Below are positions 50,396 through 58,026 of a stretch of 64,000 nt of DNA, piece by piece (within the stretch, counting starts at the first letter, position 1; the number at the start of each line of letters is the position of its first letter). The position numbers and the translations under genes were made by a program. This DNA comes from Flavivirga eckloniae (lineage in GTDB: Bacteria > Bacteroidota > Bacteroidia > Flavobacteriales > Flavobacteriaceae). The DNA lies in the NCBI RefSeq assembly GCF_002886045.1, contig NZ_CP025791.1:248001-312000 (forward strand), given 5' to 3'. A model generated the notes under the pieces. The model made no database searches. It worked only from the letters and a program-made list of their open reading frames with translations, and had not been told where the DNA came from.

Positions 50396-51070
50396 TTACT
50401 CTTTAACAACAATAATAGTAGCTTTAACATCAATAGAAAGTGCCCATAAATCTGAAGCTAAAATATTATTTTGGTCATCTATTATTCTAAAATGTGCTGT
50501 ATTAGGTAAGGTGTATCCCTCATGTAAAGCTAAAAAGTCTATTTTATTAAACCCTTCTTTTAAAGTCAATTTAAAACCACCAAATCCGCCTGATAATGAA
50601 ACACGATATTCAACAATTTCGTCATTTACTGAAACTCGAATTAAATCGCCATCAACTTGACCATAATCCCTGTATTGAACATAAACATATTTAGATTTTG
50701 TTTTAATATCTCCAAAATACAAATCTACCTTACTTCCTTTTGTACCTAGCCCCTGCTCTTCTTTAATAGCATTAACCTTTCTCTTTATTTGTTCTTCATA
50801 GAGTTCTCCCGGATTGCCAAACTCTTCTTGCGGAAACATGGAAAACTTCTTTTTTGGCATATTAAGATTCTTATATGTACGAGGTGTATTTATATTATTT
50901 ATACCTGTATTGTTATTAATGGGTTTGGATGGCAGTAAGGATTTAGAATCTAACGAGTCCTTATTACTTTTTATAGCAGGAATAGCTATAGATTTCTTTT
51001 TCGAATCAACCTGGGCATACGTTGATAACGAGAAAAGGAAAAGAATAAAAAATGAAATATAAAGTCTCAT
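50396..51070 (-). CDS. Secreted protein of unknown function
   Basis: The 224-residue protein has a signal peptide (MRLYISFFILFLFSLSTYAQ). A low-complexity Lys/Asn/Pro-rich region follows (~22-85), then a compact Ig-like beta-sandwich (~110-224; KVDLYFGDIKTKSKYVYVQYRDYG, RVSVNDEIVEYRVSLSGGFGGFKLTL, FRIIDDQNNILASDLWALS). It has no T9SS domain. I recognise no family. It is divergent from the small-peptide array, whose first ATG is 271 bp away. Confidence 0.6.
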   Translation of the reverse strand: MRLYISFFILFLFSLSTYAQVDSKKKSIAIPAIKSNKDSLDSKSLLPSKPINNNTGINNINTPRTYKNLNMPKKKFSMFPQEEFGNPGELYEEQIKRKVNAIKEEQGLGTKGSKVDLYFGDIKTKSKYVYVQYRDYGQVDGDLIRVSVNDEIVEYRVSLSGGFGGFKLTLKEGFNKIDFLALHEGYTLPNTAHFRIIDDQNNILASDLWALSIDVKATIIVVKE

Positions 51071-51341
51071 TTGTTTTACTTATTCATTGAGTTTATGGGC
51101 ATAATACGATCCAAAGATATTTTTTTATCTAAAAACATACTCACTCCGATGCAATTTTTTGTATTCATTTAACACAATAATCATTCCTAAAAGGCTTAAA
51201 AGGTCTAAAAAATGAGTTATTACTTACCAATACCCTACCAAAATAGTTAAAATATGTTAATTTATTACTTTGTTATACATAGTACTGTAACAATTTACAT
51301 TTATTGTCGTCTATCTAGTATAATCAAATTAAATAACTATT

Positions 51342-51428
51342 ATGAGAACTTTAAACAACAATCAAATAAGTGGAACTTTAACTGGTACTAAAAGTAACCA
51401 ATGGAATAAAAAAAGACGTTTTAGATAA
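51342..51428 (+). CDS. 28-residue basic peptide, copy 1 of a tandem array
   Basis: ATG 51342 to TAA 51428 encodes 28 residues beginning MRTLN and ending W-N-K-K-R-R-F-R. It is too short for standard gene calling. Copy 2 starts exactly 163 bp later. The two differ at 4 of 87 bases; three of the changes alter a residue. Copy 3 has much different DNA but the same pattern. Upstream sequence differs from that of copies 2 and 3. There is no signal peptide or Gly-Gly leader. It is not a family I recognise. Function may be a regulatory, membrane-active or transported peptide (inference). Confidence 0.6.
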   Translation: MRTLNNNQISGTLTGTKSNQWNKKRRFR

Positions 51429-51504
51429 TTGAAAATCAAAAATGACTTCAGGGATTTAGACTATGCTCAATCCCCACTAATCAATCAAAAATCAAACAGA
51501 AATT
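51429..51504. repeat. 76-bp spacer repeat of the peptide array, first copy
   Basis: This spacer and that at 51592-51667 differ at two bases only. Both carry GGGATT/AATCCC arms that can form a short hairpin around TAGACTATGCTC or the equivalent, followed by the leader CAATCAAAAATCAAACAG. The exact 163-bp period (87-bp ORF plus 76-bp spacer) marks a recent tandem duplication. Confidence 0.8.
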
Positions 51505-51591
51505 ATGAGAACATTAAACGACAATCAAATAAGTGGAACTTTAATTGGTACTAAAAGTAGCCAATGGAATAAAAAAAGACGTTTTAGATAA
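51505..51591 (+). CDS. 28-residue basic peptide, copy 2 of a tandem array
   Basis: ATG 51505 to TAA 51591 encodes a 28-residue peptide nearly identical to copy 1: N6D, T14I and N19S differ, and the rest of the protein is the same. The 76-bp spacer after it is 74/76 identical to the spacer after copy 1, showing that an ORF-plus-spacer unit was duplicated. The leader sequence CAATCAAAAATCAAACAG lies just before the ATG here and before copy 3, hinting at a common translation or control signal. Confidence 0.6.
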   Translation: MRTLNDNQISGTLIGTKSSQWNKKRRFR

Positions 51592-51667
51592 TTGAAAATC
51601 AAAAATGACTTCAGGGATTTCGACTATGCTCAATCCCCACTAATCAATCAAAAATCAAACAGAAATC
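51592..51667. repeat. 76-bp spacer repeat of the peptide array, second copy
   Basis: 74 of 76 bases match the first spacer. Differences are one base in the hairpin loop (TTTCGAC in place of TTTAGAC) and one base just before the ATG. The motif GACTATGCTCAATCCC resembles degraded intergenic repeats that occur widely in Flavobacteriia. Confidence 0.8.
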
Positions 51668-51754
51668 ATGAGAACATTAAACACTAATCAATTAACCAAT
51701 ACCCTACCCCATACAAAAAGCTACAACTGGAATAGTAAAAGACGTTACAGATAA
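51668..51754 (+). CDS. 28-residue basic peptide, copy 3 of a tandem array (diverged)
   Basis: ATG 51668 to TAA 51754 is again exactly 28 residues and 163 bp from copy 2. It shares 18 of 28 residues with copy 1, plus I/L, S/T and F/Y exchanges: MRTLN, NQ, TL, TKS, W-N and K-R-R-[FY]-R are fixed. Conserved Thr3, Thr12, Leu13, Thr16 and Ser18 use different codons from copy 1, so selection appears to act on the peptide. The last codons and stop are folded in a perfect hairpin (51738-51765). Confidence 0.58.
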   Translation: MRTLNTNQLTNTLPHTKSYNWNSKRRYR

Positions 51755-51765
51755 GTAACGTCTTT
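51738..51765 (+). terminator. Hairpin overlapping the end of peptide copy 3
   Basis: A perfect 11-bp stem (51738-51748 with 51755-51765, AAAGACGTTAC/GTAACGTCTTT) has the last codon and stop codon in its 6-nt loop. The poor downstream U-tract (AAGACAAAAAAA) makes simple termination uncertain. It could act as mRNA 3' stabiliser or attenuator ahead of the fourth small ORF. Confidence 0.45.
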
Positions 51766-51852
51766 AAGACAAAAAAATTCATCAATCAATCTATGCCGAA
51801 CTCGCCCGTACAGAACTTGTTTCAGCATTTCACTATCAAAAATCAATCAAAA

Positions 51853-51987
51853 ATGAAATCAACAGTCAAAATATCTAAATACATAAATACTATCACTCAA
51901 GAAAATTTACTGACCAATAGAATCGTACCAAATCTTAGCTATTCGTATGAAGATGACTGGAGACGGTTAAAACACTATGCTTACTAA
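51853..51987 (+). CDS. 44-residue peptide gene following the array
   Basis: ATG 51853 to TAA 51987 encodes 44 residues ending D-D-W-R-R-L-K-H-Y-A-Y. An in-frame ATG at 51793 would add 20 residues, but ATG 51853 is preceded by AATCAATCAAAA, the same leader seen before copies 2 and 3, so I prefer it. The C-terminal W followed by basic and aromatic residues echoes the 28-residue copies, though overall similarity is weak. It may be a diverged member of the same set. No family is recognised. Confidence 0.45.
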   Translation: MKSTVKISKYINTITQENLLTNRIVPNLSYSYEDDWRRLKHYAY

Positions 51988-52433: not shown

Positions 52434-53015
52434 ATGAAAAAAGACTTGTTTATTCTAAATAGTGATAGAGCTTTAGTGGAAAGTCTTAAAGAAGGAAAAA
52501 TAAAAGCATTTGAAAAGTTATTTAATAAATATAGTAAGAACCTATATGGTTTTGCTTTAGGATATTTAAAGTCTCCTGTAGAAGCAGAAGGTGTTGTGCA
52601 GGATGTCTTTTCAAAAGTTTGGGAAAAAAGAGCTGATTTAAAACCAGAACATAGTTTCAAATCTTACATTTTTACCATAGCATTAAACTTGATAAAAAAA
52701 ATATTTATTAAAAGAAATAAAATTCGAACCTATTTAAATTCAAAAGAAAAGGTCATTGATTTTGATCAATCCACTTTAAGTCAAATTGATTATAATTTTA
52801 TGATGAAACGAGTTATGGAATTGGTTTCTAAAATGCCGGATCGCAGGCGAGAAACATTTATAAAAAGCCGTTTTGATGGACTGTCTGTAAAAGAAATAGC
52901 TAAAGAAATGAATGTTAGCCCTAAAACTGTAGAAAACCAAATTACTTCTGCCCTAAGGTTTATCAAGCTCAATTGGGATTTTAACGAACCTCAAGAAAAA
53001 GCACAAATAGTATAG
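52434..53015 (+). CDS. ECF sigma factor (FecI-like, RpoE type)
   Basis: The 193-residue protein has sigma region 2 (~20-85; KAFEKLFNKYSKNLYGFALGYLKSPVEAEGVVQDVFSKVWEKR) and region 4 (~130-185; MPDRRRETFIKSRFDGLSVKEIAKEMNVSPKTVENQITSAL). It belongs to the Bacteroidota family-1 type that pairs with FecR and SusC(STN) proteins in trans-envelope signalling. It is followed by FecR 294 bp downstream, then SusC and SusD. It likely drives transcription of the downstream SusC/D genes when the receptor binds ligand. Confidence 0.94.
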   Translation: MKKDLFILNSDRALVESLKEGKIKAFEKLFNKYSKNLYGFALGYLKSPVEAEGVVQDVFSKVWEKRADLKPEHSFKSYIFTIALNLIKKIFIKRNKIRTYLNSKEKVIDFDQSTLSQIDYNFMMKRVMELVSKMPDRRRETFIKSRFDGLSVKEIAKEMNVSPKTVENQITSALRFIKLNWDFNEPQEKAQIV

Positions 53016-53309
53016 AGCTTATTAGTATCAAAAACTATTTACTTTAGTACATTTCACTTTAAACTTCTAAAAACATTTGGCTCGAATTATATGAATTCGT
53101 ACTAATTAAGTTTTACAATCTCTAGTCTTTTATATTTCGGTATTTCTCTTTACAAACTTTCAGCCTTAAAATGAGTGTCAGTCCTATTACCGTAAGGTCA
53201 ATGCGTCTTAATTAACATAATAAACTTATTTAGGTTAGTAGGGGAACTCTTTAGTTTAAGGATATTACCACCAAGCATTTTGTTTGCCCTCATAAATAAC
53301 ATTTTTTTG
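53016..53309. other. Non-coding gap between sigma and FecR genes
   Basis: This 294-bp gap is larger than usual between FecI and FecR. It contains the inverted repeat CGAATT/AATTCG (53093-53098 with 53104-53109) and may hold a separate promoter for FecR. Confidence 0.4.
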
Positions 53310-54350
53310 ATGAAACAAAACATTGATAGGAAAAGAATAAAAAACTATTTCTCTGGCAATTATGACCAAAAAGATAGTTTATATATAGAAAAATTGTTTT
53401 CAAATACAGAAGTAGAAGAAGAATTGAAAGCATTTCTTGAGCAAAATTGGAATGAATCTCATAACCAATATGATATACCAGACCACGACTTAGATCATAT
53501 ATTACTTAGACTTTATGAGGAAATAAATCAAAAAGAGCAAAGTAACTCACAAAAAAATATCTTCATTAAAGTATGGAAAGCTTATGCTCGCATAGCCGCT
53601 ATATTAATACTACCTATAGCATTTATGTGCATGATTTATTTTAATGTAGTACAAGAAGAATATACAAATGAAGATTCTTATGTAGAAGTTAGCGCGCCTT
53701 TAGGTTCTAGGGTTCAATTCACACTTCCAGATAGTAGTATGGGTTGGTTAAATAGTGGTTCTAAAATTAAATACCCGGCAAAGTTTGGTAAAACCAGAGA
53801 TGTTGAATTAACTGGTGAGGCTTGGTTTGATGTTAAAAAAAATGCGAGCAAACCTTTTAATGTATATGCCTCTAATGTTAACATCTCTGTTTTAGGAACG
53901 CAATTCAATGTTTCAGCCTATCAAAATGAAAAAGTAGATGTTGTTTTAGAAACTGGAAAAGTGAAGTTAAAACAGCTAAATACTAGTGAAGAGTTGGAAA
54001 TGGATCCACAAGATAGAGTTGTAATAAATACCGAAGATAATAGCGTAGATAAAACAAAACTAGAAGAAGCCTATAAGTATTCTAGTTGGAAAGAAGGTAA
54101 ACTTATTTTTAGAAACGACCCCATTAATGAAGTCGCAAAAAGATTAAGTAGGTGGTACAATGTATCGGTTGATATCGAGAATAAAAATGATAAAGATTTA
54201 CGGTTAAGAGCAACATTTGTAGATGAAGATATTGAAGAAGTGCTACGTTTATTAAAGATGAGCTTCCCTATTGATTATAAAATAGAATCGAGAGAGAAAG
54301 ACGAAAATAATCAATTCAGTAAACGTAAAATAGTAATTAAAGTTGAATGA
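53310..54350 (+). CDS. FecR-family anti-sigma factor
   Basis: I start at ATG 53310 (MKQNIDRKRI), since the upstream TTG at 53280 gives an ill-fitting extension. The ~346-residue product has a cytoplasmic N-terminus (~1-85), a membrane helix (~93-112), a FecR domain (~125-225; VEVSAPLGSRVQFTLPDSSMGWLNSGSKIKYPAKFG, GEAWFDVKKNASKPF) and a DUF4974 C-terminal domain (~265-346). It relays a signal from the STN domain of SusC to the sigma factor. It has the usual Bacteroidota order. Confidence 0.93.
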   Translation: MKQNIDRKRIKNYFSGNYDQKDSLYIEKLFSNTEVEEELKAFLEQNWNESHNQYDIPDHDLDHILLRLYEEINQKEQSNSQKNIFIKVWKAYARIAAILILPIAFMCMIYFNVVQEEYTNEDSYVEVSAPLGSRVQFTLPDSSMGWLNSGSKIKYPAKFGKTRDVELTGEAWFDVKKNASKPFNVYASNVNISVLGTQFNVSAYQNEKVDVVLETGKVKLKQLNTSEELEMDPQDRVVINTEDNSVDKTKLEEAYKYSSWKEGKLIFRNDPINEVAKRLSRWYNVSVDIENKNDKDLRLRATFVDEDIEEVLRLLKMSFPIDYKIESREKDENNQFSKRKIVIKVE

Positions 54351-54495
54351 AAAATATACAAAAACAACTAACTAAATATAAATATATGCCTATGTGAATT
54401 TGAGATAAAAAAGAACAGGAATGTAGTTGCAATACATCCCTGTTAAAAATTATTAGCAGAATTAACAAATTAAAAAACTACTAAATAACAAAAAT

Positions 54496-57400
54496 ATGAA
54501 AAAAAAAGCAGAGCGGTGTGATCTACAATCGCGCCGTATTAGAAATATCTTGAGAATTATGAAAATATCGGTATTCCTGTTTTTAGTTACAGTTACAAGT
54601 GTTTTTGCAAATGGTTCTTATTCCCAGAATAAAAAAATGACCTTAAACATGACGAATGTAAAACTGGGATCTGTACTAGATGCTATTGAAGAAAAGAGTG
54701 AATTTTATTTTCTTATCAATAAAGACCTTATCGACGAAAACAGCATTGTTAGCATTAATGTAACAAAGACTAAAATAAGCAATATTTTAGATCTATTATT
54801 AAATAAGAACAAAATTGAATACGTCATTCAGGATAAGCAGATTGTTTTCATAAAACGTGAGCTTCAAAAAATGAAAGGTGTTACTAATCAAGGGGTAACA
54901 ACTAGTGACCTTTCTGTGAATTTAGAAACATCTCTTGTAAACATAAAAACTGTTCAAAATAAAATTAGAGGTAAGGTCACAGATGCCAATGGTGTGGCAC
55001 TTCCAGGTGTTAATGTTATAGTAAAGGGAACCAGTATAGGAGCACAAACTGACTTTGATGGAGATTACTCTTTAAATGTGCCTAGTGATTCTACTATATT
55101 GGTTTTTTCTTATTTAGGTTTTAAGACGCAAGAAGTAGAAATTGCCAATAAAACATTAGTAAATATCTCTTTAATTGAAGACATAGCAAAATTAGAAGAA
55201 ATTGTTGTTGTGGGTTATGGAGGTGTTAAAAGGAGTGATTTAACAGGTTCCGTTTCATCTGTAACTCAAAAAGACATTCAGGAGATCCCAACGAATACGA
55301 TTAGTAATTTGCTACAAGGTAGAGCCGCAGGAGTACAAGTAACCACTGGTGATGGAGCACCCGGAGGAGGAATCAATATTAGAATTAGGGGAAATAGTAC
55401 CATCACTGGATCTACAGAACCTTTGTATATAATAGATGGATTTCCTGTTAATAGTGATAACGATGACCTTTATGTAGGTGGTGGTTTTAATGAAGGAGGA
55501 GATGATAATAAAGTACGTGCAAATGCATTATCTTTTATAAACCCTGCCGATATAGAATCCATTGAAATATTAAAAGACGCCGCAGCCACAGCTATTTATG
55601 GTAGCAGGGGGTCTAATGGTGTTGTACTTATTACTACTAAAGGAGGCGCTATTGGTAAAACAAAAGTAAGCGTTAATTATTCTACAGGTGCCCAAACTGT
55701 TATTAAAAAAATTACCACATTAGATGGACCAGCTTGGGTAGCAGGATTAACAGAGGCAGAAATTAACAACAATATAGCTCCTGCAGATGTAAGGTATAAC
55801 GGTTCTGACGAGTTTCATCCATTAGCACAAAATGCCGAAACCCATAATTGGCAAGACATTTTATATAGAACAGCATTAATACAAGATGTTTCAGTGACTT
55901 TTTCTGGAGGAACAGATAAAACCAAATATTTTTTATCTGGAAAATATTATGATGCTGAAGGTATCATGGTAGGGTCTAACTATGAGGACATGCAAGCGAG
56001 ATTCAACCTAGATCAAGAAGTAGGTTTTCTTAACCTAAAGAGTAACTTTTTGGTGAGTCACAATATTAATAATAGAGTTCCCGCAGGAGCAGGATTCAAT
56101 TATAATGTAGTTAGAGAAGCTTTAAGTTTTTCTCCAGCCATTAACCCAGATTGGTTTAATGATGCTGCTGGGCTTTGGTACACAGATCCAAAAACATCTG
56201 GGCCAAATGTTTATACCAACCCCCTTAGGATAATTGAAGGAATACACGATGAGATTGCAACCAATCGTCTTTTGGGAAATGTTCAAATGGACTTAAAACT
56301 TCATAAAACATTGAAGTTAACAGGAAGTTATGGTATAGATTATTCAAATGCTACAAGAGATACTTATATTGATAGAACATTAACATTCTCAGGAACCCCT
56401 AATAACAATGGTACTGCTAGAATTAATAATGTTATATCTACTAGAACTAATGCCAATACCTACCTAACTTACAATCAATCTTTTGGTGAGCATAATTTAA
56501 ATGGAATTGTTGGTGTAGAAAGAGTTAAACAGGTTAATGAGTTTTTAAATGTTTCTATATCCGATTTTTTAGCAGATGACTTAAGAACAGATAATATTGG
56601 AGGTGGAAATTCTGAGCTTCTTGGAGCAAGTAATGGTAAGCGCCAATGGCAAACAGAAGGGTATTTTGGGCGTTTAAATTACGATTATCAAGGTAAATAT
56701 TATATAAGTCTTAACGCAAGATATGATGGATCCTCGGTATTTGGAAAAAATAATAAGTGGGCATTTTTCCCATCACTTGCATTAGCATGGAAACCTACAA
56801 AAGAAAATTTTCTACAAAATCAGAATGTTATTTCAGATTTTAAAATAAGAGGAAGTATTGGTCAGACTGGTAATGGAAATATAGATGCATATAGTTCATT
56901 AGGAGTATGGTCAATTGGTCCCAATAGATATAGTTATGGCAACGGAGAGTTAGTAAATGGGGCAAGTTTGTCTCGTATTCAAAATGACAACTTAAAATGG
57001 GAAACAACAACTCAATATAATATTGGTTTTGATGCCAGATTTCTTAATGGTAAACTAGGGCTTACTTTTGATTATTATTTAAAGGACACAGATGATTTAA
57101 TATTGGATGTAGTTATACCTAAAAGTTCAGGTTTTAAGTCATCAAGGCAAAATCTTGGAGCACTAAGAAATTCAGGAGTTGAACTTGCTGCAGATTATGC
57201 TGTATTTAGGAGCAAAAATTTTAGTTGGGATGTAAACGCCAATGCAACATTTATGAGTAGTGAGGCTACAGATGTAGGAGAAGGTACTACTATAGATCCA
57301 AATACTAATGAGCCATATATTGAAGTTTCAGAATGGCAAAGAAGAGGTGGATTAAGACTTTATGAAGGAAAACCTGCAGGACAAATTTATGGTTTCGTTA

Positions 57401-58026
57401 CCGAAGGTGTTTTTGATAATCAAGAACAAGCAGATAATTGGCCGGTAGATATGGATTCTAATAGAAATAATAATAAAGCAGGATATTGGATATATAAAGA
57501 CATTAATGGAGATGGTATTATTACAGATGACGATCAACAATCTCTAGGTACTGGCCAGCCAAAAATGATTTTTGGTTTTACCCATCGTCTTAAATATAAA
57601 GCTTTAGATTTATCACTATTTTTTCAAGGAACCACAGGAGGAAAAGTTGTCATGTTTTATCCAGGTGATTCAGATGATCCATTTTATTCAGATTTTTGGA
57701 CACCAGAAAATCAAGATGCGCAAGTAGCAAGAAGAGGTGATAATGGCTTTAGACACAATAGATTTCATAGTAGAGATGTGCAAAACGGAAACTACCTGCG
57801 TTTAAAAAATGTACGATTGGGGTATACAGTTCCAACTAAATCCATTAGTTTTTTAAGCGGTCTTAACCTATACATGAATATATCTAATTTATTTACAATT
57901 ACAGGATATAAAGGATATGATCCCGATGTAAGTTCTGGTGGTACAGTACCATTTAGTCAAGGTTTTGACACAGGAGTATATCCAAAAGCTAAGACATTTA
58001 CTTTTGGTTTAAATGCTAATTTTTAA
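54496..58026 (+). CDS. SusC/RagA-family TonB-dependent outer membrane transducer with STN domain
   Basis: The 1176-residue protein has a basic N-terminal extension and signal helix (~20-44), an STN domain (~45-100; MTLNMTNVKLGSVLDAIEEKSEFYFLI), a carboxypeptidase-D-like domain (~155-235; KIRGKVTDANGVALPGVNVIVKGT), a plug (~240-380; IVVVGYGGVKRSDLTGSVSSV) and a long beta-barrel ending with FTFGLNANF. The STN domain marks it as a signal transducer for the FecR/sigma pair upstream. SusC proteins import ligands captured by SusD, using TonB energy. It overlaps no gene; SusD follows 19 bp later. The ligand may be glycan, peptide or other. Confidence 0.95.
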   Translation: MKKKAERCDLQSRRIRNILRIMKISVFLFLVTVTSVFANGSYSQNKKMTLNMTNVKLGSVLDAIEEKSEFYFLINKDLIDENSIVSINVTKTKISNILDLLLNKNKIEYVIQDKQIVFIKRELQKMKGVTNQGVTTSDLSVNLETSLVNIKTVQNKIRGKVTDANGVALPGVNVIVKGTSIGAQTDFDGDYSLNVPSDSTILVFSYLGFKTQEVEIANKTLVNISLIEDIAKLEEIVVVGYGGVKRSDLTGSVSSVTQKDIQEIPTNTISNLLQGRAAGVQVTTGDGAPGGGINIRIRGNSTITGSTEPLYIIDGFPVNSDNDDLYVGGGFNEGGDDNKVRANALSFINPADIESIEILKDAAATAIYGSRGSNGVVLITTKGGAIGKTKVSVNYSTGAQTVIKKITTLDGPAWVAGLTEAEINNNIAPADVRYNGSDEFHPLAQNAETHNWQDILYRTALIQDVSVTFSGGTDKTKYFLSGKYYDAEGIMVGSNYEDMQARFNLDQEVGFLNLKSNFLVSHNINNRVPAGAGFNYNVVREALSFSPAINPDWFNDAAGLWYTDPKTSGPNVYTNPLRIIEGIHDEIATNRLLGNVQMDLKLHKTLKLTGSYGIDYSNATRDTYIDRTLTFSGTPNNNGTARINNVISTRTNANTYLTYNQSFGEHNLNGIVGVERVKQVNEFLNVSISDFLADDLRTDNIGGGNSELLGASNGKRQWQTEGYFGRLNYDYQGKYYISLNARYDGSSVFGKNNKWAFFPSLALAWKPTKENFLQNQNVISDFKIRGSIGQTGNGNIDAYSSLGVWSIGPNRYSYGNGELVNGASLSRIQNDNLKWETTTQYNIGFDARFLNGKLGLTFDYYLKDTDDLILDVVIPKSSGFKSSRQNLGALRNSGVELAADYAVFRSKNFSWDVNANATFMSSEATDVGEGTTIDPNTNEPYIEVSEWQRRGGLRLYEGKPAGQIYGFVTEGVFDNQEQADNWPVDMDSNRNNNKAGYWIYKDINGDGIITDDDQQSLGTGQPKMIFGFTHRLKYKALDLSLFFQGTTGGKVVMFYPGDSDDPFYSDFWTPENQDAQVARRGDNGFRHNRFHSRDVQNGNYLRLKNVRLGYTVPTKSISFLSGLNLYMNISNLFTITGYKGYDPDVSSGGTVPFSQGFDTGVYPKAKTFTFGLNANF

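Follow-up and report, generated by a model that had tools for sequence, protein, structure and literature searches.

Tandem genes for tiny, strongly basic peptides behind a shared, probably PadR- and ECF-controlled promoter in flavobacteria

An array of small basic peptides in Flavivirga eckloniae

In many marine flavobacteria, very small and strongly basic peptides are encoded by tandem genes that have been overlooked; the peptides appear to make up an undescribed family. We describe one such array in Flavivirga eckloniae (RefSeq assembly GCF_002886045.1, contig NZ_CP025791.1), within a stretch of 64,000 nucleotides that we call the window (C1:248001-312000 of genome G000, which measures 5.67 Mb). 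The array comprises three open reading frames (ORFs) of 28 codons (type A) and one of 44 codons (type B), preceded by an inverted repeat and by probable -35 and -10 elements of the extracytoplasmic function (ECF) type (Table 1).

All four ORFs lie where a first-pass annotation of the same DNA had placed them, with the lengths and the 163-bp steps it had reported. Copies 1 and 2 are near-identical, as it had also stated (80 of 84 coding bases; 94% over the 163-bp unit), and copy 3 has indeed diverged in its DNA while keeping the peptide: against copy 1, 60 of its 84 bases and 64% of its residues (18 of 28) are the same, with pS at 0.60 and pN at 0.21, and over 103 bases it shows 71% identity. 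The longest ATG-initiated ORF in the frame of the 44-mer begins at 51793, and conservation is the reason for which we prefer the later start. The three type A copies are the sole matches in the whole genome and their homologues retain frame and length, which argues against chance ORFs. What did not hold elsewhere is the strict period: exact at this locus, the spacing ranges from 115 to 318 bp in 77 neighbouring pairs of type A copies (the window's two included), and the 163-bp step thus marks only a recent duplication.

Table 1. Features of the array and its surroundings (positions within the window)
Feature	Position	Strand	Basis
28-aa peptide, copy 1 (type A)	51342..51428	+	28-codon ORF, genome search, alignment, dN/dS
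28-aa peptide, copy 2 (type A)	51505..51591	+	28-codon ORF, genome search, alignment, dN/dS
28-aa peptide, copy 3 (type A)	51668..51754	+	28-codon ORF, genome search, alignment, dN/dS
44-aa peptide (type B), similar C-terminal W / basic / aromatic box	51853..51987	+	Genome search, dN/dS, alignment
AT-rich element GTTAAAA-N3-GTTAA before the inverted repeat	51246..51260	+	By eye in 90/116 upstream regions, uncounted
19-bp inverted repeat TACTWTGY-NNN-RCAWAGTA, probable PadR operator	51266..51284	.	0 mismatches
TGTAAC, probable -35 of ECF-type promoter	51286..51291	+	GTAAC-N16-CGTC count in arrays
CGTC, probable -10 of ECF-type promoter	51308..51311	+	Array count; CGT box of SM6 motif
Spacer 1, RNA fold not significant; contains repeat-like TTAGACTATGCTCAA	51429..51504	+	Fold test, pattern search
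Spacer 2, RNA fold not significant; contains TTCGACTATGCTCAA	51592..51667	+	Fold test, pattern search
Divergent gene for a secreted-looking 224-aa protein	50396-51070	-	Relatives in 77/80 contexts
ECF sigma factor, FecR-like and TonB-dependent (SusC-like) receptor genes, directly downstream	52434-58026	+	From sequence

Distribution and selection at the protein level

Searches with copy 1 across 199 genomes of the family, representing 198 genera, recovered type A relatives in 69 genomes at E ≤ 1 and in 60 at E ≤ 0.01, with no internal stop in the full-length matches listed. A scan of species genomes returned 276 stretches encoding a relative; the best 80 of these resolve into 79 loci with record titles that include Flavivirga, Algibacter, Lacinutrix, Winogradskyella and Hyunsoonleella, and none of the 79 is titled Flavobacterium, a genus that was not searched by name. 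At E ≤ 0.01 a profile of the 28-mer matched 9 of 296 genomes sampled from the order and 8 of 296 from the phylum, family members included, and outside the family it gave only partial, weak matches (in one genome in one search and in three in the other, one with a stop) that we take for chance. One genome (G005) holds nine type A matches on four contigs (C3, C4, C14 and C16), from which it follows that arrays can multiply inside a single genome.

We collected 116 arrays, each with one to five type A copies. Taking the ATG that gives the length nearest 28 wherever several share a stop, 173 of the 194 copies have 28 codons and 15 have 29. The residues M1, R2, T3, L4, N7, W21, R25, R26 and R28 are invariant in 28 aligned peptides, and the N-terminal half is conserved as well. 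Median dN/dS is 0.31 over 8691 pairs with pS < 0.6 among 173 distinct DNA sequences, by simple pairwise counts in which the pairs are not independent. Type B occurs in 28 of the 199 genomes at E ≤ 1.1e-8, all of which also have type A; its invariant residues are M1, W36 and K40 (34 sequences), and its median dN/dS is 0.46 (180 pairs among 36 sequences). Variation in both types falls mostly at third codon positions, and in 10 of 67 neighbouring copy pairs the peptides are identical, with differing DNA in all ten. Homologues of the window's peptides, in short, exist and keep frame and length, which bears out the proposal of the first-pass annotation that these ORFs represent an undescribed small-peptide family under protein-level selection.

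These patterns also bear on the idea that the transcript is a small regulatory RNA in which the ORFs are incidental. Flavobacteria commonly make short transcripts from outside their annotated genes, with 85 new Rfp RNAs described in the accessible text of one study (PMC9723704), but the low dN/dS of both types, the third-position bias and the retained frame and length are those of coding sequence, the window has no Rfam match at gathering scores, and the spacer folds are not significant (z = -1.39, -0.56 and 0.00). We consider an RNA of this kind extremely improbable, whereas the type A and B ORFs are, to judge from their conservation, very probably translated.

No convincing match for the peptides came from Pfam, NCBIfam, PHROGs, PDB or Rfam. 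Pfam returned no family for the window's A and B copies at E ≤ 10. The best NCBIfam hit of the B peptides is an aminoglycoside-phosphotransferase model (E = 0.041; 13.4 bits against a cut-off of 625), their best PHROG is a family without an assigned function (E = 0.016), and the best PDB hit of the A peptides is one chain at E = 0.16. Exact-string searches of the literature with three peptide-tail strings and one N-terminal string found none of them, the family did not surface in text searches for small proteins, for PadR/PspC or for transcriptomes of flavobacteria, and one on the PadR operator returned nothing. Global small-protein catalogues may include the sequences unnamed, to go by the accessible text of one of them (PMC11364881), the data files of which were not searched. 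The peptides fall outside every known family tested; their general kind, stress-linked small basic proteins, is already known.

A shared promoter and its link to a PadR operon

Neither the promoter, nor its link to a PadR operon, nor the sister peptides behind it had figured in the first-pass annotation. Upstream regions of 90 arrays, out of the 116, were compared side by side, and a conserved order recurs: GTTAAAA..GTTAA, TACTWTGY-NNN-RCAWAGTA, CTGTAAC, 16 bases, CGTCT. The inverted repeat is present with at most two mismatches in 100 of the 116 arrays (at two mismatches, chance would yield the 22-base pattern 0.02 times in a window). GTAAC-N13-19-CGTC is found in 107 and its N16 form in 98, i.e., an ECF-type -35/-10 pair at fixed spacing, and repeat and -35/-10 occur together in 99. 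Of the 107 arrays with CGTC, 101 have their ATG 29-60 bases beyond it. Eight arrays have the -35/-10 pair and no repeat (L092, L094, L135-L138, L155 and L156; in L136 the pair lies 223 bases from the ATG), which suggests that repeat and -35/-10 are two separate elements. A joined 26-base pattern (repeat plus TGTAAC, at most two mismatches) occurs in 93 of the 199 family genomes, as opposed to one for the reversed control.

We take TGTAAC..CGTC to have the general form of a promoter read by ECF sigma factors. The array promoters share several traits with the SM6 promoters of Flavobacterium psychrophilum, an ECF motif for which the accessible text of its description reports a CGT box at -10 and secretion or membrane genes behind it; no inverted repeat is described there for SM6 (PMC9723704).

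In the F. eckloniae genome the 22-base repeat occurs, at up to two mismatches, at the array, at G000:C1:4700872 and at G000:C1:1477554 (one site for the reversed control). The site at G000:C1:4700872 is flanked by a DUF4442 gene on one side and, on the other, by a divergent DUF4870-PadR-PspC operon (DUF4442, DUF4870 and PadR were named by Pfam on a relative), of which the PspC protein carries PspC, LiaI-LiaF-TM_PspC and ToastRack domains, with HAAS below the cut-off. The repeat recurs at the same tolerance in all 30 PadR loci that were read (the best-scoring among 186 genomes with PadR), about 550-810 bp upstream of padR, as against 8 of 300 shuffled controls (ten per locus, one strand only), and DUF4870 heads the operon in five loci read. 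This constancy upstream of padR makes the inverted repeat probably the PadR operator, as far as its placement can tell. In the arrays the repeat stands one base from the -35, where a bound repressor would block the promoter, and we consider it likely that the arrays are under joint PadR and ECF control.

The repeat could instead be bound by a regulator other than PadR, whose doing its presence at the PadR operon would then be. The third own-genome site (L182) precedes an operon with a protein that looks winged-helix-like by eye, as this alternative would have it, but PadR repressors commonly control their own operon at ATGT/ACAT repeats, and the repeat was upstream of padR in every locus read. 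We regard a different regulator as unlikely.

Other peptides behind the promoter

Ten of the 93 genomes with the joined pattern were set aside as having the form found at PadR operons (four read, six judged from the letters), which leaves 83 promoter genomes, 24 of them without a type A hit at E ≤ 1. We read 34 promoter loci, mostly from genomes without such a hit. In three of the 24 a divergent A-like 28-mer was present after all (G078, G105 and G114), and in flavobacteria that lack the 28-mer the promoter also drives tandem arrays of different small basic peptides. One such form, type C, has 36-39 residues with the consensus MKxxxxxTPTESRxxxxFSNFKxSKRVRWxExRNYxx and occurs in 22 of the 199 genomes at E ≤ 1e-4, by a profile built partly from these same genomes. 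One locus (L220) has a 24-mer equal to the tail of type C alone, and four others (L210, L222, L224 and L229) each have peptides found in a single genome. Pfam returned no family for types C, D, E and F at E ≤ 0.01. In the type C arrays of L215, L217, L218 and L227 the first peptide has a GFGW motif at its centre, as has the second one in L201.

What most promoter-driven peptides have in common is W-x3-[RK]-x-[YF] near the C-terminus, the Trp being followed by 7-9 residues to the end in types A, B and C. At least one ORF with this box lies within 700 bp of 132 of 141 distinct promoter sites. The box is present in 276 of 465 same-strand small ORFs and in 5 of 488 antisense or upstream control ORFs, the former count being partly circular because many sites were fetched via the type A search. 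Of 30 further sites, retrieved with the promoter pattern and new to the analysis, 23 have the box (26 when His may replace the aromatic residue), against a background of 20 in 5810 ORFs.

At four sites (L200, twice in tandem, L225 and L226) the repeat and ECF-type promoter drive a secreted-looking, glutamate-rich protein of 134-188 residues, possibly an acidic partner within a basic-peptide regulon.

Genomic neighbourhood

A relative of the divergent 224-aa gene is usually adjacent to the array, and ExbD-like genes, keto-acid dehydrogenase genes and others follow (names from sequence). We rejected the 224-aa gene as a conserved partner: the whole region is syntenic, the immediate neighbours change (Winogradskyella, Lacinutrix), and extra arrays lie elsewhere. 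Among 80 contexts, the next ORF of at least 80 residues is encoded on the other strand in 26, is missing from one and lies 45-843 bp away in the rest. Since neighbours vary, the next ORF is often opposite and arrays also lie elsewhere, no neighbour explains the array.

This variability speaks to the possibility that the ORFs are tandem leader peptides, acting by attenuation or arrest on a downstream gene. A Trp at a near-fixed distance from the stop in types A, B and C is what such a mechanism might use, and many loci have an ExbD-like gene downstream in the same orientation; but the next gene is too inconstant in strand, distance and identity, and conservation of the peptides extends to their N-terminal half, so that leader peptides seem to us very improbable.

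Peptides that are short, cationic, Trp-containing and multi-copy might also be toxins, either of a type I toxin-antitoxin system or as secreted antimicrobials. Median net charge (K+R minus D+E) is indeed +6 in 194 A and 40 B copies. By eye, however, the A and B alignments have no hydrophobic segment or signal peptide, nor do they contain a Gly-Gly leader such as a RiPP or bacteriocin precursor may have; no immunity, peptide-export or modifying (maturation) gene was seen by eye in the 18 recurring neighbour clusters listed, where most neighbours went without a family search; and one composite 28-mer had no match at E ≤ 1 in phage and plasmid collections. An antisense antitoxin RNA was not searched for. 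We judge toxins to be improbable.

The ECF sigma factor, FecR-like and receptor genes directly downstream of the window's array belong to clusters (c93-c95) that are not beside the other listed arrays. Some Algibacter-type arrays (L050, L053, L061 and L069) are followed, in the same orientation, by the gene of a secreted-looking 113-aa protein for which Pfam has no match. Short repeat-like sequences lie in the spacers at 51456-51470, 51619-51633 and 51813-51827, in the form of TTCGACTACGCTCAA-like sequences and GAACTTGTTTCAGCA: the TTCGACTACGCTCAA-like element has two matches in the window where 0.06 are expected, and GAACTTGTTTCAGCA one where 0.22 are expected. Both resemble dispersed flavobacterial repeat elements.

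Discussion

Protein-level conservation, array structure, promoter anatomy, a repeat common to the arrays and a PadR operon, and a shared tail are the sequence basis on which we lean, by a small margin of belief, towards PadR-repressed, ECF-dependent cationic peptides that would be made in bulk under envelope stress and act via their C-terminal box. In unstressed cells, PadR bound to the repeat would block the -35; an envelope perturbation sensed via the PspC/ToastRack partner would release PadR and, with an ECF sigma factor set free meanwhile, the operon would be transcribed, its tandem copies boosting the yield of peptide. The least certain part is what may follow: the peptides would remain cytoplasmic, soluble and stoichiometric, and the Trp-basic-aromatic box would dock on an abundant anionic target whose likeliest identity is RNA, the ribosome or the surface of the inner membrane; arginine-rich DUF1127 proteins, with RNA or a sensor kinase as partners, would be comparable. 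Such stoichiometric docking on an anionic partner is offered only tentatively as the specific mode of action.

Several observations weigh against this reading. PadR is present in 186 of the 199 family genomes and is thus far commoner than the arrays, and one or both promoter parts are missing in 17 of 116 arrays. Of the 22 type C genomes, six either lack a matching promoter or have just the form seen at PadR operons, by pattern search and not by a reading of their arrays. Some promoter-driven peptides lack the box or have it away from the C-terminus, the exceptions including some last C peptides, the 44-mers beside A-like peptides (L198, L208 and L223) and the GFGW peptides, some of which have a box-like string in a central position. 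Profiles of the three types do align on the box in hhalign (p = 0.0031 for A-C, 0.026 for A-B and 0.0044 for B-C), but with low probabilities (2-10%) because the profiles are short, and the AlphaFold model of a type B peptide is a low-confidence two-helix structure (pLDDT 69.7, pTM 0.30), too weak for a fold search.

The sigma factor raises difficulties of the same kind. An ECF sigma gene of F. eckloniae (G000:C1:1378461-1378916) is itself preceded by TGTAACC..CGTC, and a script found the strict motif before 16 of 30 orthologues; among the remaining 14, it failed to locate six genes and evidently misplaced the start of four, and the last four have TGTAACC followed by TAGTC instead of CGTC. The gene's own promoter, however, has one base more between its boxes than the arrays, and its co-occurrence with them is partial: at E ≤ 1e-30 it is found in 50 of the 83 promoter-bearing genomes and not in 33, and also in 30 of 116 others. 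The gene is a candidate for the cognate sigma factor. Nor does the promoter form stand out in the F. eckloniae genome, where TGTAAC-N13-20-CGTCT is not enriched (18 hits versus 31 reversed) and GTAAC-N16-CGTCT only mildly so (13 versus 6 reversed). Five of these 13 N16 hits lie inside genes; the other eight lie outside ORFs, several of them preceding membrane or secreted proteins.

The PadR operon resembles known membrane-stress systems of the PSP type. A PadR regulator with HAAS, PspC and ToastRack domains has been proposed as a membrane-stress signalling system, and the DUF4870-PadR-PspC operon of F. eckloniae, with its sub-threshold HAAS, is similar and has the repeat in common with the arrays; the accessible text of that proposal names no small-protein target and contains neither a word beginning with 'Flavobacteri' nor the term 'small protein' (PMC11237479).

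Short and positively charged, proteins with DUF1127, such as CcaF1, the SDPs and YjiS, are the nearest working analogue of the peptides; according to the accessible part of one account, they have ~47-71 residues, are arginine-rich and positive and occur several to a genome in alphaproteobacteria, CcaF1 of Rhodobacter acting on RNA and the Agrobacterium SDPs on the sensor kinase PhoR (PMC12501420). The flavobacterial peptides differ from them in having no Pfam DUF1127 match, a different motif, a PadR/ECF-type promoter and tandem near-identical copies, and in belonging to another bacterial group. DUF1127 is Pfam family PF06568.

The same analogue invites a different role for the peptides, as feedback connectors that bind the PadR/PspC (HAAS-ToastRack) sensor or an ECF/anti-sigma pair and thereby tune the stress response. 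Binding of PhoR by small DUF1127 proteins, in the text cited (PMC12501420), offers a precedent, and the repeat is common to the PadR operon and the arrays; but multi-copy arrays and the strong positive charge suggest a stoichiometric rather than a regulatory partner, and PadR reaches far more genomes than type A does at E ≤ 0.01. Connectors are in our estimation unlikely, if less so than toxins or leader peptides.

Taken further, bulk-made, box-bearing stress peptides might amount to a flavobacterial superfamily of basic peptides of 24-44 residues in tandem arrays, with interchangeable N-termini and one docking box, that would serve as the output arm of a PadR/PspC and ECF envelope-stress switch, directly protecting or silencing some universal target of negative charge, be it the ribosome, RNA or the inner membrane, and with no counterpart in other phyla; we put this forward as a speculation about which we are more doubtful than confident. 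Gene finders often skip ORFs this short, and a conserved, multi-copy, tightly regulated family may thus have escaped notice in a large group of marine bacteria. Through its shared promoter the family is tied to a PadR/PspC-type stress system, the flavobacterial targets of which become directly testable, and the recurrence of one C-terminal box on otherwise different peptides predicts a single conserved binding partner.
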